Shown here one piece after another: positions 41,149 through 61,617 of a stretch of 64,000 nucleotides of DNA (position 1 is the first letter of the stretch; every line of letters begins with the position of its first letter). Source of the stretch: Longimicrobium sp. (GTDB taxonomy: Bacteria > Gemmatimonadota > Gemmatimonadetes > Longimicrobiales > Longimicrobiaceae); contig NZ_DATIND010000092.1 of NCBI RefSeq assembly GCF_035474595.1, positions 1-64,000 on the forward strand, given 5' to 3'. A model generated the notes under the pieces. It had not been told where the DNA came from and searched no databases. It saw only the letters and a program-made list of their open reading frames with translations. A program made the position numbers and the translations under genes.

Positions 41149-41454
41149 ATGCGCAAGCTCAGGCTGGACGTGGATCGCCTTTCCGTGGAGTCGTTCGCCA
41201 CGGGAGCAGTGATGCGGAAAACCGGGACGGTACGCGGCCGCGGCGAAGACTGCACGTATTTCGACAGCTGCTTCTGCCACACGGCGTACGCGGTCTGCGG
41301 CACTGGCCACGCCACCATCTACTCGTGCAACTACACCTACGACGAGCGCTGTGCCGAGGACACGCTGGCCGAGCCGTGCGAGCGCACCGCGGTGGATTGC
41401 CTGGACACCTCGTACGACGTGTGCGGCACGCGTATGGACACCCCCGTCTGCTGA
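41149..41454 (+). CDS. RiPP precursor-like peptide 1, pinensin-type leader, 10 Cys
   Basis: 101 residues. The leader RKLRLDVDRLSVESFATG matches the other three peptides (consensus K-L-x-L-x-x-[DE]-x-L-x-V-[ES]-S-F-[EAD]-T). After a short linker the rest has 10 Cys spaced by Thr, Tyr and Asp (CTYFDSCFCHTAYAVCGTG, CLDTSYDVCGTR). There is no signal peptide. I chose ATG 41149 because the leader begins there; ATG 41119 is possible. Leader-plus-Cys/Thr core is the layout of lanthipeptide-like precursors such as pinensins, but no LanB/C, LanM or radical-SAM gene is in the window. A perfect hairpin follows 39 bases after the stop. Confidence 0.72.
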   Translation: MRKLRLDVDRLSVESFATGAVMRKTGTVRGRGEDCTYFDSCFCHTAYAVCGTGHATIYSCNYTYDERCAEDTLAEPCERTAVDCLDTSYDVCGTRMDTPVC

Positions 41455-41493
41455 GGGCATCGGCGGACAACGTGCCGAGAGCCCGGCGCGCGC

Positions 41494-41528
41494 AATCGGC
41501 CCCGGCGGTCATCTCGCCGGGGCCGATT
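41494..41528 (+). terminator. Hairpin terminator after RiPP-like gene 1
   Basis: AATCGGCCCCGGCG (41494-41507) and CGCCGGGGCCGATT (41515-41528), a perfect 14-bp stem with a 7-base loop. Confidence 0.8.
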
Positions 41529-41566
41529 CGTATCCACCGTCGCGCGTCATCCGCGGCTGATCGCTC

Positions 41567-43537
41567 TCAGCGCGTCCCCGCCGCGGCGGGCGGCGGGGCG
41601 AAGCTGACGCGGCGCAGCTCGTGGATACGGCCGTCGTCTTCCCTTCCCTCCACCAGCTCGTAGCCCAGCAGCGCGAAGACGCGGCCGCGCAGGAAGATGG
41701 GGCGCGCGTTGCCGTACCAGTCCACGCAGCTGACCTTGCAGCCGTCGTCCGCGCCCGAGGTGTCGCGTGCGGCCAGCTCGCCCAGCTCGCGCAGGCGGAA
41801 CGCCTGGTTGCGCAGGAACAGCACCGACGCCGAGCCGCGGTCCAGCTGGCGGTACCCGGGGCGCGCCGCCTCGGCCACGGGCAACCCCAGCACCCCCACG
41901 TCGTCGCCGTCGGGCCGGTAGAAGAAGCCGTGCGTGCGCGTCTCGCCCTGCGACGCGTTCGGGCGAGTGTAGCGGTCCGCCAGCGTGGCCCGCGCGCCGC
42001 CCAGCCGCACTCCGCTGAAGTGCAGGTCGCGCCCGTCGCTGCCCACCACCACCGCGCCCGAGCCCATCGCCTCGATGCGGTCCACGCCGTGCGGCAGCCG
42101 CAGCGAGTCGACCGCGCCCGCGCCGGCCCAGCGCACCGCGTACACCATCGACGTGTCCTTCATCGCCCCGGCCCAGCCGGCGCCCGGGCCGTACATCAGC
42201 CAGCTGCCCACGTAGCGGTTCTGGAGCGCCCGGTTGCCGCCGGGCGTGGGAAGGCGGCGGTAGGCCGACACCGGCGCCGCGCGGCGTCCGTCGCCCAGGC
42301 TGGCAATCGGCACGCGCAGCAGCGACAGATCGCCCTCGGGCACCTCCTGCCGCCACATCGCCTCGCCGCTCGCGTCGGCCTCCACCAGCACGTTCAGGTA
42401 CCCGTCGCCGCCCTCCAGGAACGACATCTGGTCCACGGGCCCGCCGCTCACCCGCAGCCCCGTGGGCGCCGAGCCGTCCAGCGGCATGCGGTAGAGCATG
42501 GACTGCGGCGGCAGCTCGCCGTCCCGTTCGTTCCACAGCTCGCGCGTGGCCCACACGTACACCGCGCGCGGCGACACGTAGAACACGCGCCCCTGGGGCC
42601 CGAAGAGCGCGGTGGAGCGGCAGTCCAGCGCCTCGCCCAGCAGGTCGCACACCGTCACCGTGTGCAGCACCAGCTCGTCGTCGAACGAGACGTCGCCGGC
42701 GGGGCGGTAGACGCGCGCGGCCGGCGCGGTGCGGTGGAAGGTGGTGTCGGCCACGCCCCAGCGGCGCACGGCGGGAAAGCCGGCGAACGGGTCGTCGGTC
42801 TCGAACGGGTCCACGGGCACGGGGGAGTACATCACCAGCTTACCGTCCACCAGCCGGCTGGCGAAGTTGCGCGACGAGTAGTAGTCCTCGGAGCGGAGCT
42901 GGTAGGTGGCGCGCCAGGCGAGGCGCCCGGCCTCGTCCAGGTGGAACAGGCCCAGCTCGGTGCCGCCGCGCTCGTAGCTGTAGCCGATGACCACCACCTG
43001 GTCGCCCGACACCAGCATCTCGTCGATCCAGGTGCCGCTGGGGTCCAGCCCGGGGCCGAAGGCGTCCAGCGCGCTCACCGGCTGCAGCGCGTCGCCGCCG
43101 ATGCGCACGGTGAAGAGGCGTCCGCGGCGCAGGATCACCAGGTAGTCGCCGTGCACCTTCACGATGCCGCCCTCGTCAACCCCCGCGTGCTGCACGTTGG
43201 TGATCGACTCGTCCGGCCGCGCCGCGGCAGCACCGGTCGCCGTGACCACCTGGTCCATCACGATCGGGGCCGGAGGAGGCGGCGGTGGCGCGCCCGGCAT
43301 GGTGGGCGGGGGCGGGGGAGCGGGCGGCGGGGGTGGAGGAGGGGGCGGAGGTGGGGGTGGCGGCGGAGGCTCGTACGCGGCGGCCAGCTGGCGGACGAAG
43401 CTCGCGAACTCGGCGTCACTGCGGAACGGGCGCAGCGTGCGGCCGTGCTGGCCGGGGAGGCCGCCGGTCGCGCACCCGGCGCTGCCCAGCGACGCGGCGC
43501 ACACGGCGGCCAGCGCGAACAGGGGGATCGCTCTCAT
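41567..43537 (-). CDS. Beta-propeller domain lipoprotein (PF09826-like) with polyproline linker
   Basis: 656 residues. The signal RAIPLFALAAVCAASLGSAGC has a lipobox (SAGC, C22). A 30-residue linker at about 56-88 is almost pure proline. The domain proper starts ITNVQHAGVDEGGIVKVHGD, the N-terminal signature of the secreted C-terminal beta-propeller family, and continues with repeated propeller strands (MLVSGDQVVVIGYSY, LVDGKLVMYSPVP, VFYVSPRAVYVWATR, FLRGRVFALLGYEL) to the end. Binding or enzymatic role unknown. It should be anchored to the outer or inner membrane facing the periplasm or surface. Confidence 0.83.
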   Translation of the reverse strand: MRAIPLFALAAVCAASLGSAGCATGGLPGQHGRTLRPFRSDAEFASFVRQLAAAYEPPPPPPPPPPPPPPPPAPPPPPTMPGAPPPPPPAPIVMDQVVTATGAAAARPDESITNVQHAGVDEGGIVKVHGDYLVILRRGRLFTVRIGGDALQPVSALDAFGPGLDPSGTWIDEMLVSGDQVVVIGYSYERGGTELGLFHLDEAGRLAWRATYQLRSEDYYSSRNFASRLVDGKLVMYSPVPVDPFETDDPFAGFPAVRRWGVADTTFHRTAPAARVYRPAGDVSFDDELVLHTVTVCDLLGEALDCRSTALFGPQGRVFYVSPRAVYVWATRELWNERDGELPPQSMLYRMPLDGSAPTGLRVSGGPVDQMSFLEGGDGYLNVLVEADASGEAMWRQEVPEGDLSLLRVPIASLGDGRRAAPVSAYRRLPTPGGNRALQNRYVGSWLMYGPGAGWAGAMKDTSMVYAVRWAGAGAVDSLRLPHGVDRIEAMGSGAVVVGSDGRDLHFSGVRLGGARATLADRYTRPNASQGETRTHGFFYRPDGDDVGVLGLPVAEAARPGYRQLDRGSASVLFLRNQAFRLRELGELAARDTSGADDGCKVSCVDWYGNARPIFLRGRVFALLGYELVEGREDDGRIHELRRVSFAPPPAAAGTR

Positions 43538-43790
43538 CTCGCGGAAACGGTGAAGGGGTGGGGAGATAGCGGAAGGACGGCAGCGGATCGAGCAACGGGC
43601 GTGGAGATCCAGTATCGGGAATCGCCGCCGGTTTCGATAGATGCAACGCACCACCCGCCGCGCCTCCGCCGGCGACCGGCCACGAACCGTTGGGAGAGAG
43701 CGCTGATCCGAATCTCCCGCCTCTTCCCCCAATCTTCCTGCCAATCCCCCAATCTTGCCGCCCGTCCTCCGATTCGGTGCGATCGCCCGG

Positions 43791-43850
43791 CATCGCGCCC
43801 TCTCCGGCCGGCCGAGGCCGTCCACCTCTCCCGTACCGGGAGAGGTAGCT
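43791..43850 (-). repeat. Dispersed palindromic repeat family 1, copy e
   Basis: CATCGCGCCCTCTCCGGCC ... CTCTCCCGTACCGGGAGAGG ... TAGCT. In a 584-base gap with family 2 copy c and no recognisable gene. Confidence 0.9.
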
Positions 43851-43931
43851 CTCCTGCATCTCCGCCACACCGCAAACATGGACGCCGCCAAAAGGTTTAC
43901 CGGTTTCGAAACTGATCGTGCAATCCGGCAG

Positions 43932-44014
43932 CGCACGTGCGACCTCGCCTATAGATCCTTCGGCCTGCAACCACTCGTGCTGAGCAAAGCTGGTGTGGCC
44001 GGCCTCAGGATGAC
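43932..44014 (+). repeat. Dispersed repeat family 2, copy c
   Basis: GCACGTGCGACCTCGCC ... AGATCCTTCGGCCTGCAAC ... GTGTGGCCGGCCTCAGGATG ... ACGTC. Confidence 0.85.
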
Positions 44015-44121
44015 GTCTCTGTGCGTTTGTAATGCCCAGGTGATTGGTAGATCCGGTATTACAGGGCGCGCGGAAGCTGACCCCCTGGCCCGAGACGAGA
44101 GAGCGCCAGCCGACAGGAAGG

Positions 44122-45165
44122 TCAGGCGGGATCGGGACCGGGCGCGAGGACGGAGGCTTTCCACTCCGCCAGGATCGGGTCCAGGCGGGCCGGCTCGCGG
44201 CGGGCGCCCAAGGCGGCGAAACGGTCGCGGGCCGCCTCGAGCAGGGCACAGGCTTCGGCGCGGCGCCCCTCCACGTACCGCAAGTGGGCGATCCCGCCCA
44301 GCACCTGGGCCTGCTCCAGCTCCAGGCCGGCCGCGCGGGACTCGGCGAGCGCCTGCTCCAGGTACTCGCCGGCCGCCGCGGTGTCGCCCTTCAGCCGCGC
44401 CACGATCCCCCGGAAGCGCAGCACCGCCACCGCGGCCTCGCGGTCGTCCGACTCGCGGGCGAAGCGGTCGGCCCGGTCCAGCGACTCGCCGGCCTGGCCC
44501 AGCTCGCCCAGGTGGATGAGCGGCTCGGCCACGCCCACCGAGAGGCGCGCCAGCATGGGAACGTGCCCCAGCCGCTCGGCCAGCTCCAGCCCCCGCTCGA
44601 AGTAGAGCTCGGACTCCAGCCACTCGCCCATGTCGGTGCAGATGACGCCCAGGTTGTGGTAGGCCATCAGCGCCGCGGTCCGGTCGCCCGTGCGCGCGCT
44701 GGCGCCGATGCTCTCCAGGTACAGCGTGCGCGCTTCGTGCAGGTCGCCGCGGATGTTGGCCACGACGCCCAGATTCTGGCAGGCGTGCCCCACCAGCTCG
44801 TCGTCGTGCACCGCGCGGGCGCGCTCCAGCGCGTGGCGGTACAGGCCGCTCGCGCCGTCCAGGTCGTGGCGCGCGAACCCGATCATCCCCCGCACGTTCA
44901 GCGCGCGTGCCCCGGCGCGCTCCAGGCCATGCAGCGCGGCCATCTCGCCGGCCAGCACCGCCAGCTCCTCGGCCTCGTCCAGCCGGCCCTGCGCCAGGCG
45001 CACCCGCGCGCTCCCCCGCGCGGCCTCCACCATCGCCTCGGGCGAGCGCTCCGCGGCGCCGTGGCGGAACGCGGCGGCATAGGCCTCGGCGGCGGCGCTC
45101 CACCGCCCGGCCTGCTCCATCTCGCGGGCGCTCTCCCGCCGCGCGGCGCATGCGGTTCCGCTCAT
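44122..45165 (-). CDS. Tetratricopeptide-repeat protein
   Basis: 347 residues, soluble, almost all helical. About seven TPR-like hairpins are visible, for example ACQNLGVVANIRGDLHEART, AYHNLGVICTDMGEWLESEL and FRGIVARLKGDTAAAGEYLE. It resembles the TPR part of SARP/LuxR-type regulators but has no DNA-binding domain. Likely a protein-interaction scaffold. It starts 14 bases after the stop of the lipoprotein gene, so the two probably share a transcript, perhaps with the histidine kinase gene further upstream. Confidence 0.82.
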   Translation of the reverse strand: MSGTACAARRESAREMEQAGRWSAAAEAYAAAFRHGAAERSPEAMVEAARGSARVRLAQGRLDEAEELAVLAGEMAALHGLERAGARALNVRGMIGFARHDLDGASGLYRHALERARAVHDDELVGHACQNLGVVANIRGDLHEARTLYLESIGASARTGDRTAALMAYHNLGVICTDMGEWLESELYFERGLELAERLGHVPMLARLSVGVAEPLIHLGELGQAGESLDRADRFARESDDREAAVAVLRFRGIVARLKGDTAAAGEYLEQALAESRAAGLELEQAQVLGGIAHLRYVEGRRAEACALLEAARDRFAALGARREPARLDPILAEWKASVLAPGPDPA

Positions 45166-45179
45166 CGCCCCGCTCCGCT

Positions 45180-45728
45180 TCAGTTCCCGCCGACCGCGTA
45201 GATGCTGAACCCGCTCAGCAGCGCCGCCACCCTTCCGTCGCGGTCCACCCCGCCCCTGGCCTCGGGCTGCCCGCGCGGCGGGAGGCGGTACAGCGCGTAC
45301 GGCGGGCGCGGGCGGCCGGAGGTGCTGGCGCCGAGACAGGGCGAGTAGTTGACGGTGAGCCGCACCGCGCCCTGGAAGGTGGTCGGCGCGTTCCCCACCG
45401 GCTCGATGCGGAACGCGGCGTACGGGCGGTACCAGGTGATGCGGTACTGCGCCCCGGCAGGCGCCGACCCGGTGTCGAACTGCAGCGAGTGGCCGCCCCC
45501 GATCGCCACCGCGCCATAGCCCGCGGGCACGGTCACGATCGCCTGGCCGCCGGGAAGGAAAGCGCTGCTGTCGGCGCACGCGAGAAGGCGGACCCGCGTG
45601 GCCACCGTGACGCCGTTCCGGTAGCTGTCCGGGTAGGCGGTTTCGGTGGCGGGGACGCTGGCGCATGCGGGCGCCAGGGCGGCGAGCACGACGGCCGCCC
45701 ACGCGGCGCGGAGCCGGGTTGCGTACAT
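45180..45728 (-). CDS. Secreted or lipid-anchored hypothetical protein
   Basis: 182 residues. Signal TRLRAAWAAVVLAALAPAC with a possible lipobox (APAC, C22). The mature part is beta-rich (NGVTVATRVRLLACADSSAF, QYRITWYRPYAAFRIEP, VRLTVNYSPCL), with three further Cys that could make disulfides. No family recognised. It sits between the histidine kinase (47 bases upstream) and the TPR gene (14 bases downstream) on the same strand. Confidence 0.72.
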   Translation of the reverse strand: MYATRLRAAWAAVVLAALAPACASVPATETAYPDSYRNGVTVATRVRLLACADSSAFLPGGQAIVTVPAGYGAVAIGGGHSLQFDTGSAPAGAQYRITWYRPYAAFRIEPVGNAPTTFQGAVRLTVNYSPCLGASTSGRPRPPYALYRLPPRGQPEARGGVDRDGRVAALLSGFSIYAVGGN

Positions 45729-45775
45729 GAAGACCCCCGATCTGAAGGAGGTGCCGCGGGTTCGCTACCGCCCGT

Positions 45776-47494
<1,719 letters not shown>

Positions 47495-47837
47495 GGCCGC
47501 ACCGATTTGCTGGATCGCGGCGGAAGGAACCCCCCGTGTCCGCCAGGAGGAAGCCGCCGCGGATGGGAGGATCGTTCACGAAACGTGCCCGGCTCGTCCA
47601 CTTCCCGCACCCCGGCGGAGCGGCGGGGACGGACCCGGCAAGTCCCTGCACAACCGGCATTTATCGGCCACGCGAGAGTCACCCGGTCCGGACAGGTGCG
47701 GCATCCGCCGGGCGGCCCTTCGGGGCAGCCACGTCCCACATGGGACATCGTGAGGCCGATCGGATCCCGTCCCGCGCGGCCACCGATTCTTTCCACGACC
47801 CGGAGACGAAGCAATCGAAGGAGGATGAGCAAAACGG

Positions 47838-47875
47838 CGGCGGGCGCCGGAGACTTCGCGTCTCCGGCGCCCGCC
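47838..47875 (-). terminator. Rho-independent terminator after RiPP-like gene 2
   Basis: GGCGGGCGCCGGAGAC and GTCTCCGGCGCCCGCC form a 16-bp stem with a TTCGC loop; on the minus strand CCGTTTTGC follows. It lies 25 bases after the stop at 47900. The rest of 47495-47837 shows nothing I can call. Confidence 0.85.
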
Positions 47876-47899
47876 GTGCGTTTCCGTGCGTCCGCCGGC

Positions 47900-48076
47900 T
47901 TAGAAGCAGGCGTCGATGCAGGTGTAGCCGAAGCAGGTGCCCACGAGCGGGTCGCAGGTGTACTGGTTCGCCTTGGTGCGGGCGTACGCCTCGACCGTGC
48001 CGGCCTCGACCTCGACCGCGGCGGTCTCGAAGGCGCTGACCTGCAGGTCGTCGATGTTCAGCGAGATCTTCTTCAT
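47900..48076 (-). CDS. RiPP precursor-like peptide 2, pinensin-type leader, 4 Cys
   Basis: 58 residues. Leader KKISLNIDDLQVSAFETA; core-like end CDPLVGTCFGYTCIDACF. The motif TCFGYTC is nearly the same as TCYGYTC in peptide 4, although the genes are 13 kb apart. GGGAGG lies 10 bases before the ATG at 48076 with GGTAGCAGG between, a strong site for so small a gene. A 16-bp terminator follows. An inverted repeat AACCCCT/AGGGGTT (48205-48226) and a possible promoter (TTGTGT-17-TAGGTT on the minus strand) lie upstream. No maturation enzyme is adjacent. Confidence 0.78.
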   Translation of the reverse strand: MKKISLNIDDLQVSAFETAAVEVEAGTVEAYARTKANQYTCDPLVGTCFGYTCIDACF

Positions 48077-48204
48077 CCTGCTACCTCCCTCTGGATTCCG
48101 GCGCGGGACCATGCGGAGACCGGCATCCCGCGCCCCACGGTTATCTCTCGGTGTCCTGAAGCAGTCTCCGTGCAGCCAACCTAGAGGGATCGATCCAGCG
48201 ACAC

Positions 48205-48226
48205 AACCCCTTGACACAGAGGGGTT
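48205..48226. promoter_or_regulatory. Inverted repeat upstream of RiPP-like gene 2
   Basis: AACCCCT (48205-48211) and AGGGGTT (48220-48226) around an 8-base spacer containing TGACAC. It lies just upstream of the possible -35 of gene 2 and could be an operator. The rest of 48077-48430 has no gene that I can see. Confidence 0.3.
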
Positions 48227-48430
48227 TACCTGCATCGTGGCGTTCACGCTGGCTTCCTTCCGGTCCGGTGCTGCCTCGCGATTCCGGCGGCATCCCGTTG
48301 CCGCGCGGGTGGTTCGCGGGCGGCCACTCCGGTGGCTTCCCCGGCTCTGTCGGACGGGTACGGGGGAGGTAGATTCCATGAGCTTCGATCCCATTCCACC
48401 ACGGCACATCCCGACCGGAGACGACGCACG

Positions 48431-48994
48431 ATGCATCCGCGCATCCAGCAGGTGCTGGACCTGATCGACGAGCAGTACCAGGCCCTGCGTGCCGCCGCCG
48501 ACGCGGTGCCCGCCGGGCACCGCGAGCACCAGCCGGCCGGCGGGGGGTGGTCGGTGGCGCAGGTGATCGAGCACGTCTCGAAGGTGGAGAACGTGATGGC
48601 CGAGCGCGTCACGCAGGCGCTGGCCGAAGCGCGGGCGGGCGGCGTGGGCCCGGAGACGGAGACCGCGCCGCTGGACACCTCCGGGCACTTCGCGAGGGTG
48701 GCCGACCGGTCGCAGAAGCGCGTCGCCCCCGAGCGCGCCCACCCGGCGCCCGACGCGCGCTACGACAGCGCCCGTGCCGCGCTCGATGCGGCGCACCAGC
48801 GCGCGGTGCAGGCCTTCGCCGCGGGCGACGGGGTGGCGCTGGCGCAGGTGGAGATGGCGCACCCCGCGCTCGGCCCGCTGAACCTGTACCAGTGGGGCGT
48901 CTCCGCCGCCGCCCACGAAGCCCGCCACGCCGCCCAGATCCGCGAGATCGCCGCCACCCTCGCATCACCCGACGAGCCCGCGGCCGCGAGCTGA
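48431..48994 (+). CDS. DinB-like (four-helix) protein
   Basis: 187 residues. The N-terminal helix IQQVLDLIDEQYQALRAAAD, the WSVAQVIEHVSKVE metal-site helix and the C-terminal HEARHAAQIREI helix fit the DinB/YfiT superfamily, in which three His bind a metal. Members act as thiol-dependent transferases or have unknown roles. The ATG at 48431 follows GGAGACGACGCACG. A perfect hairpin follows the stop. Confidence 0.83.
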   Translation: MHPRIQQVLDLIDEQYQALRAAADAVPAGHREHQPAGGGWSVAQVIEHVSKVENVMAERVTQALAEARAGGVGPETETAPLDTSGHFARVADRSQKRVAPERAHPAPDARYDSARAALDAAHQRAVQAFAAGDGVALAQVEMAHPALGPLNLYQWGVSAAAHEARHAAQIREIAATLASPDEPAAAS

Positions 48995-48999
48995 GATGC

Positions 49000-49032
49000 C
49001 ACGGCCCCGGCGAGCGGATCGCCGGGGCCGTG
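49000..49032 (+). terminator. Hairpin terminator after the DinB-like gene
   Basis: CACGGCCCCGGCGA (49000-49013) and TCGCCGGGGCCGTG (49019-49032), a perfect 14-bp stem. The remainder of 48995-49534 has a weak family 3 fragment near 49170-49205 and no gene I can support. Confidence 0.8.
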
Positions 49033-51736: not shown

Positions 51737-51743
51737 TGAAGCC

Positions 51744-51893: not shown

Positions 51894-51931
51894 TTCGTCT
51901 TGTCCCCATCCCCAAGACCCACGAGGACCGC

Positions 51932-54406
51932 ATGCCCCCGGAACGCCTGGTGGTGCACAAGTTCGGCGGGACCAGCCTGGCCGGCGCGGAGCGCTACCGC
52001 GCCGTGGCGGAGATCGTCCTCGCGCGCCCCGAGCCGCGGCGCGCCATGGTCGTCAGCGCCATGGCGGGGGTGACGGACGGGCTGGTGCGCGCGGTGCGGC
52101 TGGCGGGCGCCCGCGACGCCGCGTACGAGCGCGAGATCGCGGCGCTGCGCGAGCGCCACCGCCGGACCGCCGCCGAGCTCCTCCCGCCCGCCGAGGCGGA
52201 ATCGGTCGCCGAGGCGATGGAGCGCGAGCTGGCCGACGTGCACGACGTGCTGCGCGCCGCCTGGATCCTGCGCCACGCCCCGCGCGGCGGCGCCGACATG
52301 GTGTCCGGCGTGGGCGAGGTCTGGTCCGCGCGGCTGCTGGCCGCGTACCTGGGCACGCGCGGCGCGGGCGGCGCCTGGCTGGACGCGCGCGAGGTGCTGG
52401 TCGCCGAGCCCGGCGAGACGACGGCGCGGGTGGACTGGCCCGCCACGCGCGAGCGGCTGCGCGCGTGGGAAGCGGCGCGCGGCGGCATCCCCCCGATGCT
52501 CGTGGTAACCGGCTTTGTCGCCTCCACCGCGGCGGGCGTCCCCGCCACGCTGGGGCGGAACGGGAGCGACTTCTCCGCCTCCATCTTCGGCGCGCTGCTG
52601 GGGGCCGACGAGATCCACATCTGGACCGACGTGGACGGGGTGATGAGCGCCAACCCGCGCCTCGTCCCCGAGGCCATCGTCCTCGACCGCCTGAGCTACC
52701 GCGAGGCGATGGAGCTGGCGCACTTCGGCGCCAGGGTCGTCCACCCGGCGACGATGGGGCCCGCGGTGGAGCGCGGCATCCCCCTCTACATCCGCAACAC
52801 CTTCCGCCCGGACGCGCCGGGAACGCGCATCGACGCCGACGGCGCCCCGGTGCGCATGGTGAAGGGGCTTTCCACGGTGGAGGGCGTGGCCCTGCTGAAC
52901 CTGGAGGGGCCGGGGATGCGCGACGTGCCCGGCACCGCGCACCGCCTGTTCGCCGCGCTCCGCGAGGCCGGCGTGGAGCCGCTGATGGTGTCGCAGGGAA
53001 GCTCGCAGAACTCCATCTGCCTGGCCGTGCCCGCCGCGCTGGCCGGCGCGGCGCGCGGGGCGGCCGACGCGGCCTTCTTCGCCGAGCGCCACCACGGGCA
53101 GGTGCGTGAGACCGAGGTCGACGCCGACTGCTGCCTCCTCGCGGTCGTGGGCGACGGGATGGCGGGGAACCCCGGCGTGGCCGCGCGCTTCTTCGGCGCG
53201 CTGGGGAAGGCGGGCGTGAACATCCGCGCGATCGCGCAGGGCTCGTCGGAGCGCAACATCTCCGTGGTGGTCGGCGGAAGCGAGGCCGAGCGTGCCTTGC
53301 GCGCCGCGCACGCCGGGCTGTACCTGTCCGGGCAGACGCTCTCCATCGGGGTGATCGGCAGCGGCGTGGTGGGAGCGGCGCTGCTGGACCAGCTGGCCGC
53401 GCGCGCCCCCGCCATCCGCCGCGAGCGCAACGTGGACCTGCGCGTGCGCGCCATCTGCACCTCGCGCGCGATGGCGCGGGACGATCGCGGCATCGCGCTC
53501 GGCGGCTGGCGGGGGGAGATGGCGCGCGGCGACGCGCCGGATCTGGACGCCTTCGCCGCGCACGTGCAGACCGAGCACCTGCCGCACGCGGTGATCGTGG
53601 ACTGCACGGCCGACGAGTCCATCGCGCGGCGGTACGCGGAGTGGCTGCGGCGCGGCATCCACGTGGTGACGCCGAACAAGCGCGCGAACACGCTGGAGCT
53701 GGACTACTACCGCCAGCTGCGGGCGCTGGGGCGCGGCGCGGGCGGGCACTACCTGTACGAGACCACGGTCGGCGCGGGGCTCCCCATCATCCAGACGCTG
53801 CGCGACCTGATCGACACGGGCGACGAGGTGCAGCGCATCGAGGGCGTCCTTTCGGGGACGCTGTCGTACCTCTTCAACGCCTTCGACGGGGTGCGGCCGT
53901 TCTCGGAACTGGTCGGCGAGGCGCGGCGCGAGGGGTTCACCGAGCCCGACCCGCGCGACGACCTGTCCGGCGCCGACGTGGCCCGGAAGGTGGTGATCCT
54001 GGGACGGGAGATGGGACTGGAGATGGAGATGGCGGACGTGGAGCTGGAAGGACTGGTGCCCGACGGGCTGCGCGGCGGGAGCGTGGACGACTTCCTCCGC
54101 CGCCTGGGCGAGCACGACGAGCCGATGACGCGGATGTGGCGCGACGCGCACGGGCGCGGCGAGCGGCTGCGCTTCGTCGGCGCCGTCGAGCGGGACGGGC
54201 GGGCGACGGTGCGGCTGCGCGCCTATCCGGCCACGCACGCATTCGCGCGGCTGAACCGCACCGACAACCTGGTGCAGTTCCAGACGCGGCGGTACACGCC
54301 CAACCCGCTGATCGTGCAGGGCCCCGGCGCCGGGCCGGAGGTCACGGCCGGCGGCGTCTTCGCGGACCTGCTGCGCCTGGCCTCGTACCTGGGGGGCGCC
54401 TCGTGA
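51932..54406 (+). CDS. thrA: Bifunctional aspartate kinase / homoserine dehydrogenase
   Basis: 824 residues. Aspartate kinase at about 1-300 (VVHKFGGTSLAGAERY; GRNGSDFSASIFGALLGADE), two ACT-type regulatory modules at about 315-460 (LNLEGPGMRDVPGTAHRLFA; NPGVAARFFGALGKAGVNIR), and homoserine dehydrogenase at about 470-824 (IGVIGSGVVGAALLDQLA; VVTPNKRANTLELDYY; IEGVLSGTLSYLFNAFD). Catalyses steps 1 and 3 from aspartate; feedback inhibition by threonine is expected from the ACT modules. GAGGA lies 6 bases before ATG 51932. Preceded by an attenuator; the stop overlaps thrB (GTGA). Confidence 0.95.
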   Translation: MPPERLVVHKFGGTSLAGAERYRAVAEIVLARPEPRRAMVVSAMAGVTDGLVRAVRLAGARDAAYEREIAALRERHRRTAAELLPPAEAESVAEAMERELADVHDVLRAAWILRHAPRGGADMVSGVGEVWSARLLAAYLGTRGAGGAWLDAREVLVAEPGETTARVDWPATRERLRAWEAARGGIPPMLVVTGFVASTAAGVPATLGRNGSDFSASIFGALLGADEIHIWTDVDGVMSANPRLVPEAIVLDRLSYREAMELAHFGARVVHPATMGPAVERGIPLYIRNTFRPDAPGTRIDADGAPVRMVKGLSTVEGVALLNLEGPGMRDVPGTAHRLFAALREAGVEPLMVSQGSSQNSICLAVPAALAGAARGAADAAFFAERHHGQVRETEVDADCCLLAVVGDGMAGNPGVAARFFGALGKAGVNIRAIAQGSSERNISVVVGGSEAERALRAAHAGLYLSGQTLSIGVIGSGVVGAALLDQLAARAPAIRRERNVDLRVRAICTSRAMARDDRGIALGGWRGEMARGDAPDLDAFAAHVQTEHLPHAVIVDCTADESIARRYAEWLRRGIHVVTPNKRANTLELDYYRQLRALGRGAGGHYLYETTVGAGLPIIQTLRDLIDTGDEVQRIEGVLSGTLSYLFNAFDGVRPFSELVGEARREGFTEPDPRDDLSGADVARKVVILGREMGLEMEMADVELEGLVPDGLRGGSVDDFLRRLGEHDEPMTRMWRDAHGRGERLRFVGAVERDGRATVRLRAYPATHAFARLNRTDNLVQFQTRRYTPNPLIVQGPGAGPEVTAGGVFADLLRLASYLGGAS

Positions 54407-55347
54407 CGCCTCCGTCGCGCGCCACGGCCTTCGCCCCCGCCAGCACCTCCAACCTCGCCGTCGGCTTCGACCTCCTCGGCCATCCGCTGGCGCTGTATGG
54501 AGATCGCGTGACGGTCACGCGGCGCGCGTCCCCCGGTGTCGTGATGGGCGCGGTGACGGGAGTCGCCGGCCCGCTGCCGGCGGACCCCGCCGCGAACACC
54601 GCGGGGACGGCGGTGATGCGCTTCCTGGCCGACCACGCGCCGGGGCTGGGCGTGGAGGTGGCGATCGAGAAGGGGATCCCGCTGGGCTCGGGGATCGGGG
54701 GATCGGCCGCCTCCGCAGTGGCCGCGGTGGTCGCAGCGAACGCGCTGCTCCCGGAGCCGCTCCCCGCCGCCGCGCTCTTCCGCTACGCGCTGATGGGCGA
54801 GGCGGTCGCCAGCGGGGCGATGCACGGCGACAACGTGGCCCCATCGCTCTTCGGCGGGCTGGTGCTGGTGCGCGCCGCCGATCCGCCGGACGTGGTTCCC
54901 CTCCCCGCCCCGCCCGCGCTGCGCTGCGTCCTCGTGCTCCCGCGCCTGCGGCTGGACACGCGCGACGCCCGCGCCGTGCTGCCGAAGTCCGTGCCGCTGG
55001 GCGACTTCATCCACCAGTGCGCGAACCTGGCCGGCGTGGTGGCGGGGTGCTTCCGCGGCGACCTGGCGCTCATCGGCCGCTCGCTGCGCGACGAGGTGAT
55101 CGAGCCGCACCGTGCCGCCCTCATCCCCGGCTTCGCCGCCGTCCAGGCCGCCGCGATGGACGCGGGCGCGCTCGGCTGCTCCATCTCCGGCGCCGGCCCC
55201 AGCCTCTTCGCCTGGTGCGATGAGGATGAAGATGCCGAGCGCGCGCGGATCGCGATGGTCGCTGCCTTCGCCGCCGCCGGAGTCGCCGCCGAGGGCTGGA
55301 CGTCGCCGGTCGACGGCCCGGGCGCGCGGCTGGAGGACGTGGGGTGA
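54403..55347 (+). CDS. thrB: Homoserine kinase
   Basis: 314 residues, GHMP kinase family. ATP loop IPLGSGIGGSAASAVAAVVA; N-terminal ATAFAPASTSNLAVGFDLLG; C-terminal LGCSISGAGPSLFAW. Phosphorylates homoserine for ThrC. The GTG start overlaps the thrA stop by 4 bases. Confidence 0.95.
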   Translation: MTPPSRATAFAPASTSNLAVGFDLLGHPLALYGDRVTVTRRASPGVVMGAVTGVAGPLPADPAANTAGTAVMRFLADHAPGLGVEVAIEKGIPLGSGIGGSAASAVAAVVAANALLPEPLPAAALFRYALMGEAVASGAMHGDNVAPSLFGGLVLVRAADPPDVVPLPAPPALRCVLVLPRLRLDTRDARAVLPKSVPLGDFIHQCANLAGVVAGCFRGDLALIGRSLRDEVIEPHRAALIPGFAAVQAAAMDAGALGCSISGAGPSLFAWCDEDEDAERARIAMVAAFAAAGVAAEGWTSPVDGPGARLEDVG

Positions 55348-55378
55348 TGGGGATGCGTGCGCGTCCCAAAAGATCCAG

Positions 55379-55430
55379 AATGCGAGTGAACTCGCGGCTA
55401 CAACGGCACGCACTCCGCCTGCGCGGAGTT
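55379..55430 (+). repeat. Dispersed repeat family 3, copy c
   Basis: AATGCGAGTGAACTCGCGGC, TACAACGGCACGCACTCCGC, CTGCGCGGAGTT. Opposite in orientation to copy d 50 bases further on; the two make an inverted pair in the thrB-thrC gap. Confidence 0.8.
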
Positions 55431-55477
55431 CAACCGCGTTTCCCCGTCGCACCAGCGATGCGGCCGCCCAGGAGTGA

Positions 55478-55534
55478 TGTCCGCGAAGGCGGACAGTGTG
55501 CAGTTGTAACCGCCACTTCAGCGGCATTTTCCAC
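55478..55534 (-). repeat. Dispersed repeat family 3, copy d
   Basis: ATGTCCGCGAAGGCGGAC, then CAGTTGTAACCGCCACTTCA, then GCGGCATTTTCC. Partner of copy c. Confidence 0.8.
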
Positions 55535-55574
55535 ACACCGATGCCGGTAACAAGCTCCGCATGGCCGGAATGAG

Positions 55575-56867
55575 ATGAGATACATCAGCACGCGCGGCCA
55601 ATCCGATCCCGTCCCGCTCTCCGCGGCGGTGGAGCGCGGGCTGGCGCCGGACGGCGGCCTCTACGTCCCCGAGGCGTATCCCCCCATCGCGCCCGAGGCG
55701 CTGGACGGCGCGGAGACGCTGGCGGAGGTCGCCGAGCGGCTGCTGGCGCCGTTCTTCGCGGGCGATGTGCTGGCGCCCGCGCTGGGCGCCATCTGCCGCG
55801 AGGCGTTCACCGTTCCCGTGCCGCTGCGAGATCTGCGCGATCGCACCGCCGTGCTGGAGCTGTTCCACGGGCCGACCGCGGCGTTCAAGGACGTGGGCGC
55901 GCGCTTCCTGGCCGCGCTGATGTCGCGCCTCGACGGCGGCGACGCGCGGCCGCTCACCATCCTCGTCGCCACCTCGGGCGACACCGGCGGCGCGGTGGCG
56001 GCGGCGTTCCACGGGCGCCCGGGCGTGGAGGTCGCCGTGCTGTATCCGGCGGGGATGGTGTCGCCGCGGCAGGAGAAGCAGCTCACCGCGTGGGGCGGCA
56101 ACGTGCGCGCGTTCGCCGTGCGCGGCGCCTTCGACGACTGCCAGCGCCTGGTGAAGGCGGCCATGGCGGACCCGGCGCTCCGCGCGGCGCGGCGATTGTC
56201 GTCGGCCAACAGCATCAACGTGGGCCGGCTGCTGCCGCAGATGGCCTATTACGCCTGGGCCGCGCGCGAGTACGTCCGCCGCCACGGCGCGGAGCCGGGC
56301 TTCGTCATCCCCTCGGGCAACCTGGGCAACGCCGCGGCGGCGCTCTGGGCGCGCCGCGCCGGGCTCCCCATCCGCCAGGTGGTGATGGCCACGAACGCGA
56401 ACCGCGCCATCGCCGCGTTCGCCGCGGGCGGCGCGTGGGCCGCGCACCCGACCGTGGCCACGCTCGCCAGCGCGATGGACGTGGGCGATCCCAGCAACAT
56501 GGAGCGCATCTTCCACCTCTTCGGCGGCCACGAGCCTGCGCGCGCGGCGCTGTGCGCGGAGCAGGTGGACGACGACGAGATTCGCCGCGTGATCCGCGAA
56601 GGCGAATCGCGGTGGGGCACCGTGTGGGACCCGCACACCGCCACCGCCATCGCCGCGCGCGAGCGCCTCGGCGGCAGCGACTGGATCGTCGTCGCCACCG
56701 CGCACCCCGCCAAGTTCGAGGCCGTCGTCGAGCCGCTCGTCGGCCACGAGATCCCCATCCCCCCCGAGTTGCAGCGCCTCCTCGGCCGCCCCTCCCACGC
56801 CGAGCCCCTGGAGCCCACCCTCGACGCCTTCCGCGCCGCGCTGGAGGGCGAATCAGAGGGGAGATAA
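55575..56867 (+). CDS. thrC: Threonine synthase
   Basis: 430 residues, PLP enzyme: phosphohomoserine to threonine. The PLP lysine is in FHGPTAAFKDVGARFLA; VATSGDTGGAVAAAF is the phosphate-binding loop; RYISTRGQSDPVPLSAAVER is the typical N-terminus. The start at ATG 55575 is 227 bases after thrB, the gap being filled by an inverted pair of family 3 repeats, so coupling to the operon may be altered. A TGGCCGGAATGAG stretch precedes the start without a clear ribosome-binding site. Confidence 0.95.
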   Translation: MRYISTRGQSDPVPLSAAVERGLAPDGGLYVPEAYPPIAPEALDGAETLAEVAERLLAPFFAGDVLAPALGAICREAFTVPVPLRDLRDRTAVLELFHGPTAAFKDVGARFLAALMSRLDGGDARPLTILVATSGDTGGAVAAAFHGRPGVEVAVLYPAGMVSPRQEKQLTAWGGNVRAFAVRGAFDDCQRLVKAAMADPALRAARRLSSANSINVGRLLPQMAYYAWAAREYVRRHGAEPGFVIPSGNLGNAAAALWARRAGLPIRQVVMATNANRAIAAFAAGGAWAAHPTVATLASAMDVGDPSNMERIFHLFGGHEPARAALCAEQVDDDEIRRVIREGESRWGTVWDPHTATAIAARERLGGSDWIVVATAHPAKFEAVVEPLVGHEIPIPPELQRLLGRPSHAEPLEPTLDAFRAALEGESEGR

Positions 56868-56919
56868 CAGCGCCGCGCTGGATGTAGAGTCAGAGGGAGA
56901 CGCCAATCCCCCGCGAAAA

Positions 56920-57132
56920 GACGTCATCCTGAGGCCGGCCACGCCCGAGCCGCTTCCGCACAAGTGCATTCAGGCCGAAGGATCTATCGCCGGATAGCAC
57001 GTCAGCATGCTCCGCGCGCCGGGATGTCGGTCGCCGGTCCCCTGCTCACGTGCGAGGCAGGGTATGGATCCTTCGGCCTGCGACTTTCCGCGCGGGTGCA
57101 GCTTGCGGCGTGGCCGGCCTCAGGATGACGTC
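56920..57132. repeat. Head-to-head pair of family 2 repeats (copies d and e)
   Basis: Copy d (56920-57003) is inverted: GACGTCATCCTGAGGCCGGCC ... CAGGCCGAAGGATC. Copy e (57046-57132) is direct: CTCACGTGC ... GGATCCTTCGGCCTGC ... TGGCCGGCCTCAGGATGACG. Together they form a long inverted repeat with about 42 bases between. They fill the gap between thrC and RiPP-like gene 3. Confidence 0.85.
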
Positions 57133-57196
57133 TTTCGAGGGCGGCGTCAGGACCTGCCCGCACATCCGGTTGCACCGTTTCATCGCCAAACGAAAA

Positions 57197-57226
57197 TGCC
57201 CCGGCGCCGCTCTGGCGCCGGGGCAC
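57197..57226 (-). terminator. Rho-independent terminator after RiPP-like gene 3
   Basis: On the minus strand GCCCCGGCGCC AGAGC GGCGCCGGGGC is followed by ATTTTCGTTT. It lies 29 bases past the stop at 57255. Confidence 0.85.
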
Positions 57227-57254
57227 ATCCATTTGTCCGATCTCGGCCCGCGAT

Positions 57255-57404
57255 CTAGCAGAAGCAGACCGTCGCCTTGCTTCCGGGGACGCAGCCCGGC
57301 TCGTTCGTGCGCGGCGTGATGAGCAGCGATGCCGTATCCTGGGTGACCGGCGTTTCGAAGCTTTCGATGACCAGGTCCTCGGGGTTCAGCGTGAGCTTGG
57401 GCAT
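57255..57404 (-). CDS. RiPP precursor-like peptide 3, pinensin-type leader, 3 Cys
   Basis: 49 residues. Leader PKLTLNPEDLVIESFETP; short linker with TASLLITPRTNEPG; end GCVPGSKATVCFC. The smallest of the four peptides. GGGAGGAG lies 5 bases before the ATG at 57404 and a perfect terminator follows, so it is a complete single-gene unit. No enzyme or transporter is adjacent. The 650 bases upstream (57405-58054) hold a family 3 repeat but no gene I can support. Confidence 0.78.
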   Translation of the reverse strand: MPKLTLNPEDLVIESFETPVTQDTASLLITPRTNEPGCVPGSKATVCFC

Positions 57405-57677
57405 GGTCTCCTCCCGGGCTGGGGTGTGGTGGGAGATGCGGCGAACGCCTCGGCGCGAGGCCGGCGTTCGCGGAGCCGATGCCGCGGGATCGCGGCCGAG
57501 GTAGGCAGCCCCGCATCGAAGAAGCACCCTGCGTCAGCCACCGTCAAGCGCCCGTGCGGATGCGGGCGATGCAAGCCGCCTCGCCCGCTCTGCGGGCCAA
57601 TCCAGAGCGGATGAATGCCGCCGTTGGTTTATGATGTTGCGTGCAGCGGCGGGTTGGCTGCACGGGGAGGAATTCGA

Positions 57678-57731
57678 AGATGCGACTGAAGTCGCGGCTA
57701 CAACTGCACACTGTCCGCCTTCGCGGACATC
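57678..57731 (+). repeat. Dispersed repeat family 3, copy e
   Basis: AGATGCGACTGAAGTCGCGG, CTACAACTGCACACTGTCCG, CCTTCGCGGACAT. The first palindrome is GCGACTGAAGTCGC, again with compensating changes. Confidence 0.8.
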
Positions 57732-58054
57732 GCGCGAGGCGAGCGGCAGTGCGTCGCCTCCGAATCCGCGCGGAGGATGGTTTTGGCGATAATGTCCAGC
57801 GTTGATCCAGCGGCGGCGCAAACAAACCGCATCTGAATCTCGCCGCAGGCGGACGGACTGACACGCAACAAACATCAACGCAGCCGCGGGAGATCGCTCC
57901 CGCGCTGCTGATTTTCATCCCTCTAAAACCGCTTTGGGAAACGTCAGATCAACGTCCGTCAAATCCACAGTTGGTCAGCGGCGACGTAAAAGACGCGCCG
58001 TCGGAACCACCGCTGGACGCGTCACCGATCGACCCTCTCCCCGAACGCATCATC

Positions 58055-58567
58055 ATGACGCAACGAGATCCCCGCGATCCCGCCCACGGTCCATCGGACG
58101 ATGCCGACGACATCGAAGCCAAAGTCCGGGATGTGATGCGACAGGAGCAGACTCCGTCACCTCCACCGCCCGAGCCGGAAGCTCACGACGACATCGATCG
58201 CATCGTTGACGCCCCTGAGAAGAGGAAGTGGCGCCTGTCGTGGGAAGCGGGGAGCATCTTCGCCGTCGTGCTGATCCTTGCCATCGCTGTAGCGGCTCTC
58301 CGCGGCGGAGGCGATGACGGGAAAGAATCGAGCACGTCCCAGCAGCCGCGCGGGATAATCTCACGGCCTCCGCCGCCGCCCGCGGCACCGCTCCTGTCGC
58401 TTACCGACAGAACGGCGATCTGTCGCGACGGCACAGCGTCGTTCAGCAAGCATTCAGGTGGAACCTGCTCGTCCCGCGGTGGCGTCCGATGCTGGATCCA
58501 TCACCCGGGCCCGAACCCTCCGACGACCGCGCCGTTCTGCACCACCCCGTCCGAGAAAGAGCCTTGA
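58055..58567 (+). CDS. Single-pass membrane protein ending in a DUF3761-like motif
   Basis: 170 residues. An acidic cytoplasmic head (PSDDADDIEAKVRDVMRQEQ), a TM (SIFAVVLILAIAVAALRGGG, about 68-87), a Pro-rich linker, then AICRDGTASFSKHSGG, TCSSRGGVRCWI: the DUF3761 pattern. A Pro-rich tail follows with one more Cys. The stop overlaps a TTG of the next gene (TTGA). First of three genes in a row whose products end in this motif. Confidence 0.72.
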   Translation: MTQRDPRDPAHGPSDDADDIEAKVRDVMRQEQTPSPPPPEPEAHDDIDRIVDAPEKRKWRLSWEAGSIFAVVLILAIAVAALRGGGDDGKESSTSQQPRGIISRPPPPPAAPLLSLTDRTAICRDGTASFSKHSGGTCSSRGGVRCWIHHPGPNPPTTAPFCTTPSEKEP

Positions 58568-58602
58568 TCCGCTCGAAGAACCATAGTGAGCTTGGAGAAT
58601 CA

Positions 58603-58920
58603 ATGGATTCCGAGAAATCGTTGCGTCAGTGGCAGGCGAGGGAGCGTGCGGAAGCAAAGCGTCGGCAGGAAGAGGAGAGGCGCAGGAAGCGAGCGGAGAA
58701 GCGGCGCCGGCTTCTGAAGCCGTTGCGGGTGATCGGGTTTGCCATCTCGGCCACTGTCGCCGCCTGGGGAGCATCGAAGATCCGGCATCATGGCGAACGC
58801 GAAGCCTCGTCCGCGACCGCGCTCTGCCGGGACGGAAGCTATTCTTACAGCAAACACCGTCCGGGCACCTGCTCCGGGCATGCAGGCGTGAAGAAGTGGA
58901 TCAATCTCCCTGAGTATTGA
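58603..58920 (+). CDS. Small basic membrane protein ending in a DUF3761-like motif
   Basis: 105 residues from ATG 58603 (GGAGAAT at 5 bases). A highly charged helix (QARERAEAKRRQEEERRRKR), a TM or membrane-proximal segment (PLRVIGFAISATVAAWGASK), then ALCRDGSYSYSKHRPG, TCSGHAGVKKWI. A TTG at 58564 that overlaps the previous stop is the alternative start. The basic helix next to the membrane could bind nucleic acid or lipid; unknown. Confidence 0.72.
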   Translation: MDSEKSLRQWQARERAEAKRRQEEERRRKRAEKRRRLLKPLRVIGFAISATVAAWGASKIRHHGEREASSATALCRDGSYSYSKHRPGTCSGHAGVKKWINLPEY

Positions 58921-58946
58921 GGACCCGTTCATCCCGAGGTGAAGTC

Positions 58947-59726
58947 ATGGGCTTCCGTTTCCGCAAATCGGTGAAGATCGCACCCGGCGTCCGGCTGAAC
59001 TTCAGCCGCTCCGGCGTGAGCACGACGGTGGGCGTGCGTGGGATGAGCGTGAACACCGGCCGCCGGGGCACCTACCTGAACGCGGGGATCCCGGGGACGG
59101 GCATCCGCTCGCGCTCGCGCATCGGTGGCGGCGGGCGCGGAGGCTCGGCGGCGCCGGCTGGCGCGGGGAACACGCTGGCCGGGTGCATGGGATGCGGCGG
59201 CATCGGGTTCATGCTGCTGCTCGTCGTGGGGTTCTGCGGCAGCATCGCCGGCCACCCGGGCGGCGGCTACACCGGCGCCAGCGGCTACGCGCCGCTCTCG
59301 ATCGTCGACAGCAGCGGCTACGGCCAGCAGCGCGAAACGCTGTACGCACGCGGCCAGGTGAACGTGCGCTCCGGCGCCGGCACCTCGTACGCCGTCGTGC
59401 GCACGCTCTCGCGCGGCGATCGTATCGAAGTCGGATCACGGGATTCGCGCGGCTGGGCGGCGGTCTACGAGATCGGCGGCCCGCGCATCGGCTTCGTGCA
59501 TCTCCCCACCACGCGCCTGACCTCGTCCTCGCCATCGGCCGACGACAACGATCGTCCACGCTCGGCGCGCAGTTCGACAGACGGCGAGCGACCACGTTCG
59601 CGACGGCGCTCGGAGCGCAGCGCACCGTCCGGAGCAACCGCCCGCTGCCGCGACGGCACGCCGTCGTTCAGCACGCATCGCCGCGGCACCTGCTCGCATC
59701 ACGGAGGAGTGGCGGAGTGGTATTAG
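58947..59726 (+). CDS. DUF4236 - TM - SH3b - DUF3761 multidomain protein
   Basis: 259 residues. DUF4236 at 1-50 (GFRFRKSVKIAPGVRLNFSR, SGVSTTVGVRGMSVNTGRRG, TYLNAGIPGTGI). TM at about 80-100 (GIGFMLLLVVGFCGSIAG). Bacterial SH3-like domain at about 132-190 (YARGQVNVRSGAGTSYAVVR, TLSRGDRIEVGSRDSRGWAA), a type that often binds peptidoglycan. A Ser/Arg-rich linker leads to ARCRDGTPSFSTHRRG, TCSHHGGVAEWY. GAGGTGA lies 5 bases before the ATG. Last gene of the three-gene unit. Confidence 0.83.
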   Translation: MGFRFRKSVKIAPGVRLNFSRSGVSTTVGVRGMSVNTGRRGTYLNAGIPGTGIRSRSRIGGGGRGGSAAPAGAGNTLAGCMGCGGIGFMLLLVVGFCGSIAGHPGGGYTGASGYAPLSIVDSSGYGQQRETLYARGQVNVRSGAGTSYAVVRTLSRGDRIEVGSRDSRGWAAVYEIGGPRIGFVHLPTTRLTSSSPSADDNDRPRSARSSTDGERPRSRRRSERSAPSGATARCRDGTPSFSTHRRGTCSHHGGVAEWY

Positions 59727-59950
59727 ATCGCGCAGCGCAGCCGCGTCTGTGAGTTACCCAGCACCAGCCTTCGATCTTGCGCCCGAATGCCGCGGCCGCA
59801 GTCGCGGAGCGACTTTGTGCTGTTGTTGCATGCGAATTCCATTCGCCTTCCACCCTGCCGCGGCCAAGCCGTGCCGACGCCGTGTCGCCGCCGCGGCCGC
59901 CGTGGTAAACTGCCGGGATCGTGAAGCACGACTCCCTACCCGGCATCCAC

Positions 59951-61084
59951 ATGACGGATCGATACGACGTGATCGTGGCCGGCCTGGGCGCGATGGGCAG
60001 CGCCTCGGCGTACCACCTGGCGCGGCGCGGGCTGCGCGTGCTGGGGCTGGACCGCTGGCCGCAGCCGCACGCCCACGGCTCGTCGCACGGCGACAGCCGC
60101 ATCATCCGCGAGATGTACTTCGAGCACCCGCTGTACGTCCCGCTCGTGCAGCGCGCGTACGAGCTCTGGCGCGAGCTGGAGCGCGACGCCGGCGAGCCGC
60201 TGATGCGCATCCACGGTGGCCTGATGATCGGCCCGCGGGACGGAATGCTCATCACCGGCACCCTCCGCAGCGCCGCCGAGCACGGGCTCCCGTACGAGTT
60301 GCTGTCGCCCGCCGCGGTCCGCGTCCGCTTCCCCGCCTTCGCCATCTCCGGCGACCTCGTCGCCGTGTTCGACCCGCGCGCGGGATATCTCCACCCCGAG
60401 GCGTGCACCGCCGCGCACCTGGCGCTCGCCGCCCGCCACGGCGCCGACCTCCGCTACGGCGAGCCGGTGGCGGGGTGGGAGGAAGACGGAGACGGCGTCC
60501 GCGTCCGCACCGCGACGCAGGCGTGGACGGCCGATCGCCTGCTCGTCACCGCCGGCGCGTGGACGCGGGAGCTGCTGGGCGGGATCGATCTCCCGCTCAC
60601 CGTCGAGCGCCAGGTGCCGTTCTGGTTCGATCTCCCCGCGGGTGAGGATTACGAGCCGGAGCGCTGCCCGATCTACGCGTGGGAGCACACGACGGGCTTC
60701 ATCGGCTACGGCTTCCCGCGGCTGGAGAAGGGCGTGAAGGCCGCGCGGATGCACCAGGGCGAGACCGCCGCGCACCCCGACGGCATTCGCCGCACCGTCG
60801 ACTCAGACGAGGTGGAGCCGCTGCGGGCCGCGCTGCGCCAGATCCTCCCCGCCGCCGCGGCCGCGCCGGTGCGCGAGAGCACGACCTGTCTCTTCACCAA
60901 CACCCCGGACGGCGACTTCGCCATCGGCTTCCACCCGGCGCATCCGCGCGTCCTCATCTCCACCCCCTGCTCGGGCCACGGCTTCAAGTTCGCCTCCGCC
61001 ATCGGCGAGCTGCACGCCGACCTGCTGACCGAGGGCCGCACCCGCTTCGACCTCGCCCCATTCCGCCTGGAGCGCTTCGGTTGA
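59951..61084 (+). CDS. Monomeric sarcosine oxidase / N-methyl-tryptophan oxidase family flavoenzyme
   Basis: 377 residues. FAD-binding VIVAGLGAMGSASAYHLARR at the N-terminus; GSSHGDSRIIREMYFEHPLY is the family segment after it; STPCSGHGFKFASAIGELHA near the C-terminus has the Cys that carries covalent FAD in this family. It oxidises N-methylated amino acids, making formaldehyde and hydrogen peroxide; which substrate is used cannot be told. ATG 59951 puts the dinucleotide fold at residue 7; GTG 59921 is the alternative. Confidence 0.9.
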   Translation: MTDRYDVIVAGLGAMGSASAYHLARRGLRVLGLDRWPQPHAHGSSHGDSRIIREMYFEHPLYVPLVQRAYELWRELERDAGEPLMRIHGGLMIGPRDGMLITGTLRSAAEHGLPYELLSPAAVRVRFPAFAISGDLVAVFDPRAGYLHPEACTAAHLALAARHGADLRYGEPVAGWEEDGDGVRVRTATQAWTADRLLVTAGAWTRELLGGIDLPLTVERQVPFWFDLPAGEDYEPERCPIYAWEHTTGFIGYGFPRLEKGVKAARMHQGETAAHPDGIRRTVDSDEVEPLRAALRQILPAAAAAPVRESTTCLFTNTPDGDFAIGFHPAHPRVLISTPCSGHGFKFASAIGELHADLLTEGRTRFDLAPFRLERFG

Positions 61085-61266
61085 CGCGCGCGATCACGAT
61101 CGTATCACGCCACACAAACAGGCGTTGAGCGCCCATTTCGCTGATTTACGAATCGGTTGCGCCATGGAGCGCGAAATGCATCTGTTTACGCCCGAGCCGC
61201 GGCCGCGCTCCTGTGCCGGCCGGCTCACGAGCCTTTCCTTCGACCCCCACCCCTCGGAGGCACCTC

Positions 61267-61617
61267 ATGAAGAAGCTGGCGCTCGAGCTGGACACGCTGC
61301 TGGTCGAATCGTTCGACACCACGCCCGCCGGACGCGTCGTGATGGGCGGCACGGTGCGCGCGCACGACTCCCGCGCGTACCCCGTGGACGAGAACACCAA
61401 CAGCGGCGACGGGACGTGCTGGGAGGCCGGGTGCAACAACAACACGGCGGGCGGCGAGAACACCTGCGACACGGGGTGCGGCGGAACGCAGTACGTGACC
61501 TGCAACCCCACCGAGGCCAACTGCGTGGTGCAGACCGACAACACCTGCTACGGCTACACCTGCTACGGGGTGAGCTGCGGGCCCGCCGGCTCGTGCAGCC
61601 AGGGCTGCTACGTGTGA
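61267..61617 (+). CDS. RiPP precursor-like peptide 4, pinensin-type leader, 11 Cys
   Basis: 116 residues. Leader KKLALELDTLLVESFDTT; a linker; then 11 Cys in a Thr/Asn/Gly-rich tail (CWEAGCNNNTAGGENTC, CNPTEANC, TCYGYTCYGVSCGPAGSC). TCYGYTC is nearly the TCFGYTC of peptide 2. GGAGG lies 6 bases before the ATG. The tail is unusually poor in Lys/Arg. If the Cys react with dehydrated Thr it would be a large lanthipeptide-like product, but a disulfide-rich or metal-binding peptide is equally possible from sequence alone. Confidence 0.75.
   Translation: MKKLALELDTLLVESFDTTPAGRVVMGGTVRAHDSRAYPVDENTNSGDGTCWEAGCNNNTAGGENTCDTGCGGTQYVTCNPTEANCVVQTDNTCYGYTCYGVSCGPAGSCSQGCYV

Follow-up and report, generated by a model that had tools for sequence, protein, structure and literature searches.

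A dispersed family of small genes with a pinensin-type leader in Longimicrobium sp. and the class I lanthipeptide enzymes that probably process their products

Lanthipeptide systems in which one enzyme modifies many substrates are known mainly from marine picocyanobacteria, where they belong to class II and their function is obscure. Published sets comprise 29 prochlorosin precursors (PMC12328550) and the 79 precursors of the SyncA set of MIT9509 (PMC10783134), and prochlorosin-type precursors have been found scattered or in arrays (PMC12328550, PMC10783134). A second point of reference is the pinensin family of Chitinophaga pinensis (family I 17, Walker et al. 2020), which has a split LanB and a LanM-like LanC (PMC7268733). 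Here we analysed four small genes, P1 to P4, that encode peptides with a common leader and different C-terminal cores. They lie in a window of 64,000 nucleotides, by which we mean the whole stretch under analysis, from Longimicrobium sp. (assembly GCF_035474595.1, contig NZ_DATIND010000092.1, positions 1 to 64,000; contig C92 below).

The window genome has the leader family, the split LanB and the LanM-like LanC in common with the pinensin type. However, in Chryseobacterium and Elizabethkingia one leader match per genome adjoins the enzymes, whereas at least 174 dispersed ones are present here, and the cores have no evident homology with pinensin cores (the pinensin cluster sequence itself was not part of this comparison). 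A further mark of pinensin-type precursors is clustering with their enzymes; the window members lie on another contig than the enzymes, and we therefore limit our claim to a pinensin-type leader and pinensin-type enzymes, without a pinensin-type cluster. With the prochlorosins and synechococsins, made by ProcM and SyncM, the genes have in common a constant leader, hypervariable cores, and scattered as well as tandem gene positions. These many unlinked precursors with free cores amount to a likeness and not to membership, as neither the leader nor a LanM places them there. The prochlorosin system is of class II with a Nif11-type leader and a Gly-Gly site, whereas a split LanB and a LanC go here with an unrelated leader, in whose alignment no Gly-Gly site was found. 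Action in trans has been inferred or shown for the single LanM of those systems, while here a class I set would act in this way, on about twice as many precursors as in the largest prochlorosin-type set. We consider it highly likely, from comparison of sequences, that P1 to P4 are class I pinensin-type lanthipeptide precursors that belong to a dispersed library of about 190 genes and are processed in trans.

Our literature search returned no paper describing such a system in Gemmatimonadota; a genome note on L. terrae lists three antiSMASH regions with a lanthipeptide type (PMC7291104). Since NCBI holds a model of the leader, single members may already carry the annotation 'pinensin family lanthipeptide'. 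The leader model is thus already known, and the size of the family, its dispersal and its link to the enzymes are new. The precursors of the window and the hairpins behind them are as follows.

41149 to 41454, plus strand: precursor P1, pinensin-type leader with GTVRG motif, 101 amino acids (aa), 10 Cys in the core.
41494 to 41528, plus strand: hairpin of 15 base pairs (bp) 3' of P1, RNA fold z = -4.7, no T-run.
47838 to 47876, minus strand: 17-bp hairpin with T-run 3' of P2, terminator-like, RNA fold z = -6.1.
47900 to 48076, minus strand: precursor P2, 58 aa, 4 Cys in the core.
57196 to 57226, minus strand: 13-bp hairpin with T-run 3' of P3, terminator-like, RNA fold z = -6.2.
57255 to 57404, minus strand: precursor P3, 49 aa, 3 Cys, without the GTVRG part of the leader.
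61267 to 61617, plus strand: precursor P4, 116 aa, 11 Cys in the core, not followed by a hairpin.

A preliminary description, made from the letters of the window alone, had proposed that four peptides at these places share one leader, that their C-termini differ completely (49 to 116 aa in all, 3 to 11 Cys), that perfect hairpins stand behind the first three and GGAGG-type ribosome sites before the last three, and that no LanB, LanC or LanM gene is near. These observations held up. The open reading frames (ORFs) were confirmed, and a hidden Markov model (HMM) of the leader (profile A2), trained on 44 precursors that this genome encodes outside the window, recovered P1, P2, P3 and P4 at 50.5, 39.3, 24.6 and 38.4 bits, against control maxima of 8.3 bits for reversed and 7.9 bits for shuffled ORFs of 1.27 Mb of the genome. 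Whole-genome E-values were 2.6e-13 for P1, 1.6e-10 for P2 and 9.2e-10 for P4. P2, P3 and P4 have GGAGG-type sites and P1 has GGAG; downstream of P4 the fold z is +0.85, and only the hairpins of P2 and P3 look like true terminators. Profile searches found no LanB, LanC or LanM gene on contig C92, and a Pfam scan of the four peptides gave no match, Nif11 included.

Throughout the genome, profile A2 gave at least 150 matches, with a worst E-value of 2.3e-7 among the matches listed. An HMM search of the 1.27 Mb gave 121 members, of which 97 are among these 150 and the other 24 score at least 19.8 bits; therefore at least 174 leader-bearing genes are confirmed, about 187 are expected, and the census is a lower bound. 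An unbiased density sample (5 matches in 678 kb) was too clustered for a good estimate of the total. The resemblance to the pinensin leader, proposed earlier, was supported by the NCBIfam model NF038180 (leader_pinensin), for which the genome yields 127 loose matches and about 19 over the curated cut-off, and by the partner enzymes, which have the split LanB and the LanM-like type of LanC that are reported for pinensin. The leader consensus is MKKLxLxxDxLxVESFxT, usually followed by GTVRGH. Members of the family behave as genes: 118 of the 121 start with ATG, 114 (94%) have a Shine-Dalgarno 4-mer compared to 18% of random positions, and a perfect stem of at least 9 bp stands behind 28% compared to 1.3% at random. 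The ratio of nonsynonymous to synonymous substitution rates was uninformative, with only five pairs of tandem copies.

The 150 listed members occupy 91 sites on 54 contigs; 69 sites hold a single gene and the rest are arrays of 2 to 8. Fragmentation of the assembly was considered as a source of this dispersal and rejected, because in a related genome (G009), with contigs as long as 805 kb, 84 leaders are scattered over several of them and the enzymes are encoded on a different one. The earlier expectation of dispersed precursors in place of a usual cluster is thus right for the 69 isolated genes, but tandem arrays of up to eight and one ordinary cluster also exist. That cluster, on contig C23, has the order LanB_N, LanB_C, LanC, precursors, ABC exporter and HlyD. 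It contains at least four precursors, and four of the 150 listed members adjoin its enzymes.

The C23 cluster carries the only stand-alone LanB elimination domain (PF14028) of the genome. LanB glutamylation domains (PF04738) are encoded on C23, in a gene cut by the contig end, and on C4. There are four LanC-domain proteins, namely the C23 LanC, two LanMs (C25 and C136) and one LanKC (C87). The C23 LanC resembles LanM cyclase domains (TIGR03897, 258 bits), its catalytic CHG motifs (C313/H314 and C360/H361) are invariant in 8 genomes, and the cluster is kept at 51 to 84% identity in leader-rich relatives. The preliminary description had also named the absence of further leader matches and of any RiPP enzyme as the outcome that would speak against it; the genome-wide search gave the opposite, with at least 174 leader matches and one split LanB/LanC set. 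As separate observations, the two LanB glutamylation genes at contig ends (L043 17127-20000 on C4; L038 16214-17704 on C23) are 85.8% identical over 541 bp and probably represent a tandem duplication at which the assembly broke, and the class II LanMs and the class III-type LanKC are found at L039 5240-8374, L041 297-3545 and L042 5598-8411.

The C-terminal part of the C23 LanC, about 240 aa long, is conserved and was modelled with a pLDDT of 88.7. Its fold matches TglHI chain A (E = 5.6e-6), PqqD and TbiB1-leader complexes (TMt 0.76-0.77), the last being RiPP recognition elements (RREs) of lasso peptides solved with the leader bound. The Pfam PqqD match of this tail is marginal (E 0.07-0.17). 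In its modelled fold the domain is thus like the RREs of PqqD, the lasso B1 proteins and TglHI, but here it forms part of a lanthionine cyclase, in which it follows a helical region. Judging from this model, the constant leader probably docks on the cyclase-borne RRE.

Presence of the leader follows the dehydratase. Of 31 relatives, nine have the leader, and exactly these nine have PF14028 (Fisher p = 5e-8, kinship ignored). Among 298 genomes of the phylum, it occurs in 9 of the 10 with a stand-alone LanB_C (called by an open frame of less than 600 aa) versus 1 of the 288 others, where the match is weak, again with p-values that ignore kinship, and in none of the 6 with a full-length LanB only. 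A scan of contigs found relatives of the LanC in Gemmatimonadota, Acidobacteria, Ignavibacteriota, Aminicenantes, Phycisphaerae, Chloroflexi and Bacteroidota. The same leader adjoins split LanB and/or LanC in L134, L136, L137 and L145 to L147. The genomes in which it stands next to these enzymes are those of Melioribacter, Ignavibacteriales, Elizabethkingia and Chryseobacterium (Ignavibacteriota and Bacteroidota), with one or two copies per genome. Only the window's own family showed the large expansion. Leader counts in related genomes run from 1 to over 150. A smaller dispersed set was also observed in an Acidobacteria metagenome-assembled genome (L135), where the LanC is 45% identical and eight leader genes lie on eight contigs.

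Co-occurrence and linkage also bear on the possibility that a LanM (C25 or C136) modifies the dispersed precursors in trans and the split LanB cluster serves its own neighbours only. Two full LanMs are encoded, the prochlorosins give a precedent for a LanM acting on scattered precursors (ProcM in picocyanobacteria, PMC10783134), and a leader gene is encoded about 4.5 kb away from the C25 LanM. However, the leader tracks LanB_C exactly, whereas LanC-domain proteins, LanM included, are present in the relatives G003, G004 and G005, which have no leader, and the linkage of the leader to split LanB/LanC extends across phyla. At a density of about one leader per 35 kb, chance alone would place one near a LanM. 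We thus regard a LanM as an unlikely main partner and infer from co-occurrence and linkage that one split LanB/LanC set acts in trans. The earlier suggestion of a single enzyme elsewhere is thereby supported as to a single split set, while its exclusiveness is weakened by the two LanMs and the LanKC.

Cys makes up 0.2% of leaders and 14.8% of cores (mean of 6 per core), core Thr is 12.4%, and mean identity is 53% for the leader (shuffled 32%) versus 40% for the core (shuffled 37%). Before Cys, both Ser and Thr are enriched exactly at positions -1 and -5 and under-represented at -2; the cores strongly avoid CC pairs, and no other residue has this double peak. In a non-redundant set the peaks have z values of 11.8 (-1) and 10.2 (-5), and both recur in the genomes G008, G009, G014 and G015 (pooled z 14.7 and 11.4), so that redundant paralogues were rejected as their source. 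A second candidate, that the -5 peak is wholly a by-product of the pattern [ST]CxxxC, is partly true; the signal is weaker yet present without Cys at -4 (167/576 versus 125/576 at -6). The double peak is the trace that dense Ser/Thr-x4-Cys rings would be expected to leave, and falls short of a proof. Cys-rich cores and an ABC/HlyD exporter in the cluster would also suit disulfide-rich or metal-binding secreted peptides whose leader serves solely as a tag for export or for a chaperone, with no lanthionine. This is very unlikely given the Ser/Thr enrichment, the avoidance of CC pairs, the tracking of a dehydratase domain and a leader that is not hydrophobic.

The sequences directly show the genes, the size of the family, the enzymes, how these co-occur and are linked, the signature of the cores and the predicted RRE fold; what we propose on processing in trans, ring formation, export and any biological role is our interpretation of them. 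The constant leader would be a docking tag, bound in trans by the C4/C23 enzyme set, probably through the RRE-like domain at the C-terminus of LanC. The LanB glutamylation-domain protein and the separate elimination-domain protein would dehydrate core Ser and Thr, the LanM-like LanC would add core Cys to the dehydrated residues to form thioether rings, and the ABC/HlyD pair adjoining the cyclase is the likely exporter.

Several results weigh against this processing of P1 to P4 as pinensin-type precursors. NF038180 gives P1 11.3 bits and P2 16.3 bits, both under its cut-off of 24, and reports no match for P3 and P4. Ser or Thr stands at -5 for only about 36% of core Cys, so not all Cys need such rings. 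One genome has a stand-alone LanB_C and no detected leader (G103), and another has one weak leader match and no LanB_C (G140). A leader protease was not found, and the exporter has no C39 domain. Some members could be substrates of the two LanMs or the LanKC.

The P3 site behind thrC (56868-57404) was compared among relatives. The closest relative tested, G008 (thrC 91% identical), holds another leader peptide there (L198:1722), which begins MPKLTL, has the opposite orientation and a different core, and seven other relatives have no cassette at the site. Turnover of cassettes and cores therefore seems to be rapid. It is hardly credible that the C23 cluster alone is functional and that the dispersed cassettes are mostly decaying or silent copies: the differing leader counts and a P3 site common only to the nearest relative tested would fit it, but ORFs are intact, 94% have ribosome sites, hairpins are frequent, and the Ser/Thr-Cys signature is kept across diverged cores and genomes. 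A dispersed repeat, GACGTCATCCTGAGGCCGGCCACGCC, was also observed at 56923 (+) and 57118 (-) of the window, two inverted copies that flank the thrC-P3 stretch, and at 10162, 37614 and 44003; its 12-mer core has 64 copies in 1.27 Mb, with well under 1 expected. A tie between precursor cassettes and this repeat was rejected, as there is no enrichment nearby and, if anything, avoidance.

Returning to the class I interpretation, one machinery of split LanB and RRE-bearing LanC probably acts in trans on about 190 independently transcribed, dispersed genes of one cell. In the literature we found, this would be the largest substrate family of any enzyme set for ribosomally synthesized and post-translationally modified peptides (RiPPs), a class I counterpart of separate origin to the prochlorosins, and confined to a subset of the Longimicrobiaceae-like family. 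Because 69 of the 91 sites hold an isolated gene, genome mining that looks for clusters would overlook most of the precursor genes. The more than 170 natural cores would be a ready library for probing how tolerant a LanB/LanC set is, and the system would allow leader recognition through a cyclase-borne RRE to be tested. If our interpretation is true, a class I system about twice as large as the picocyanobacterial ones, in soil-type Gemmatimonadota, would offer a comparison of separate origin for one-enzyme, many-substrate lanthipeptide biosynthesis.
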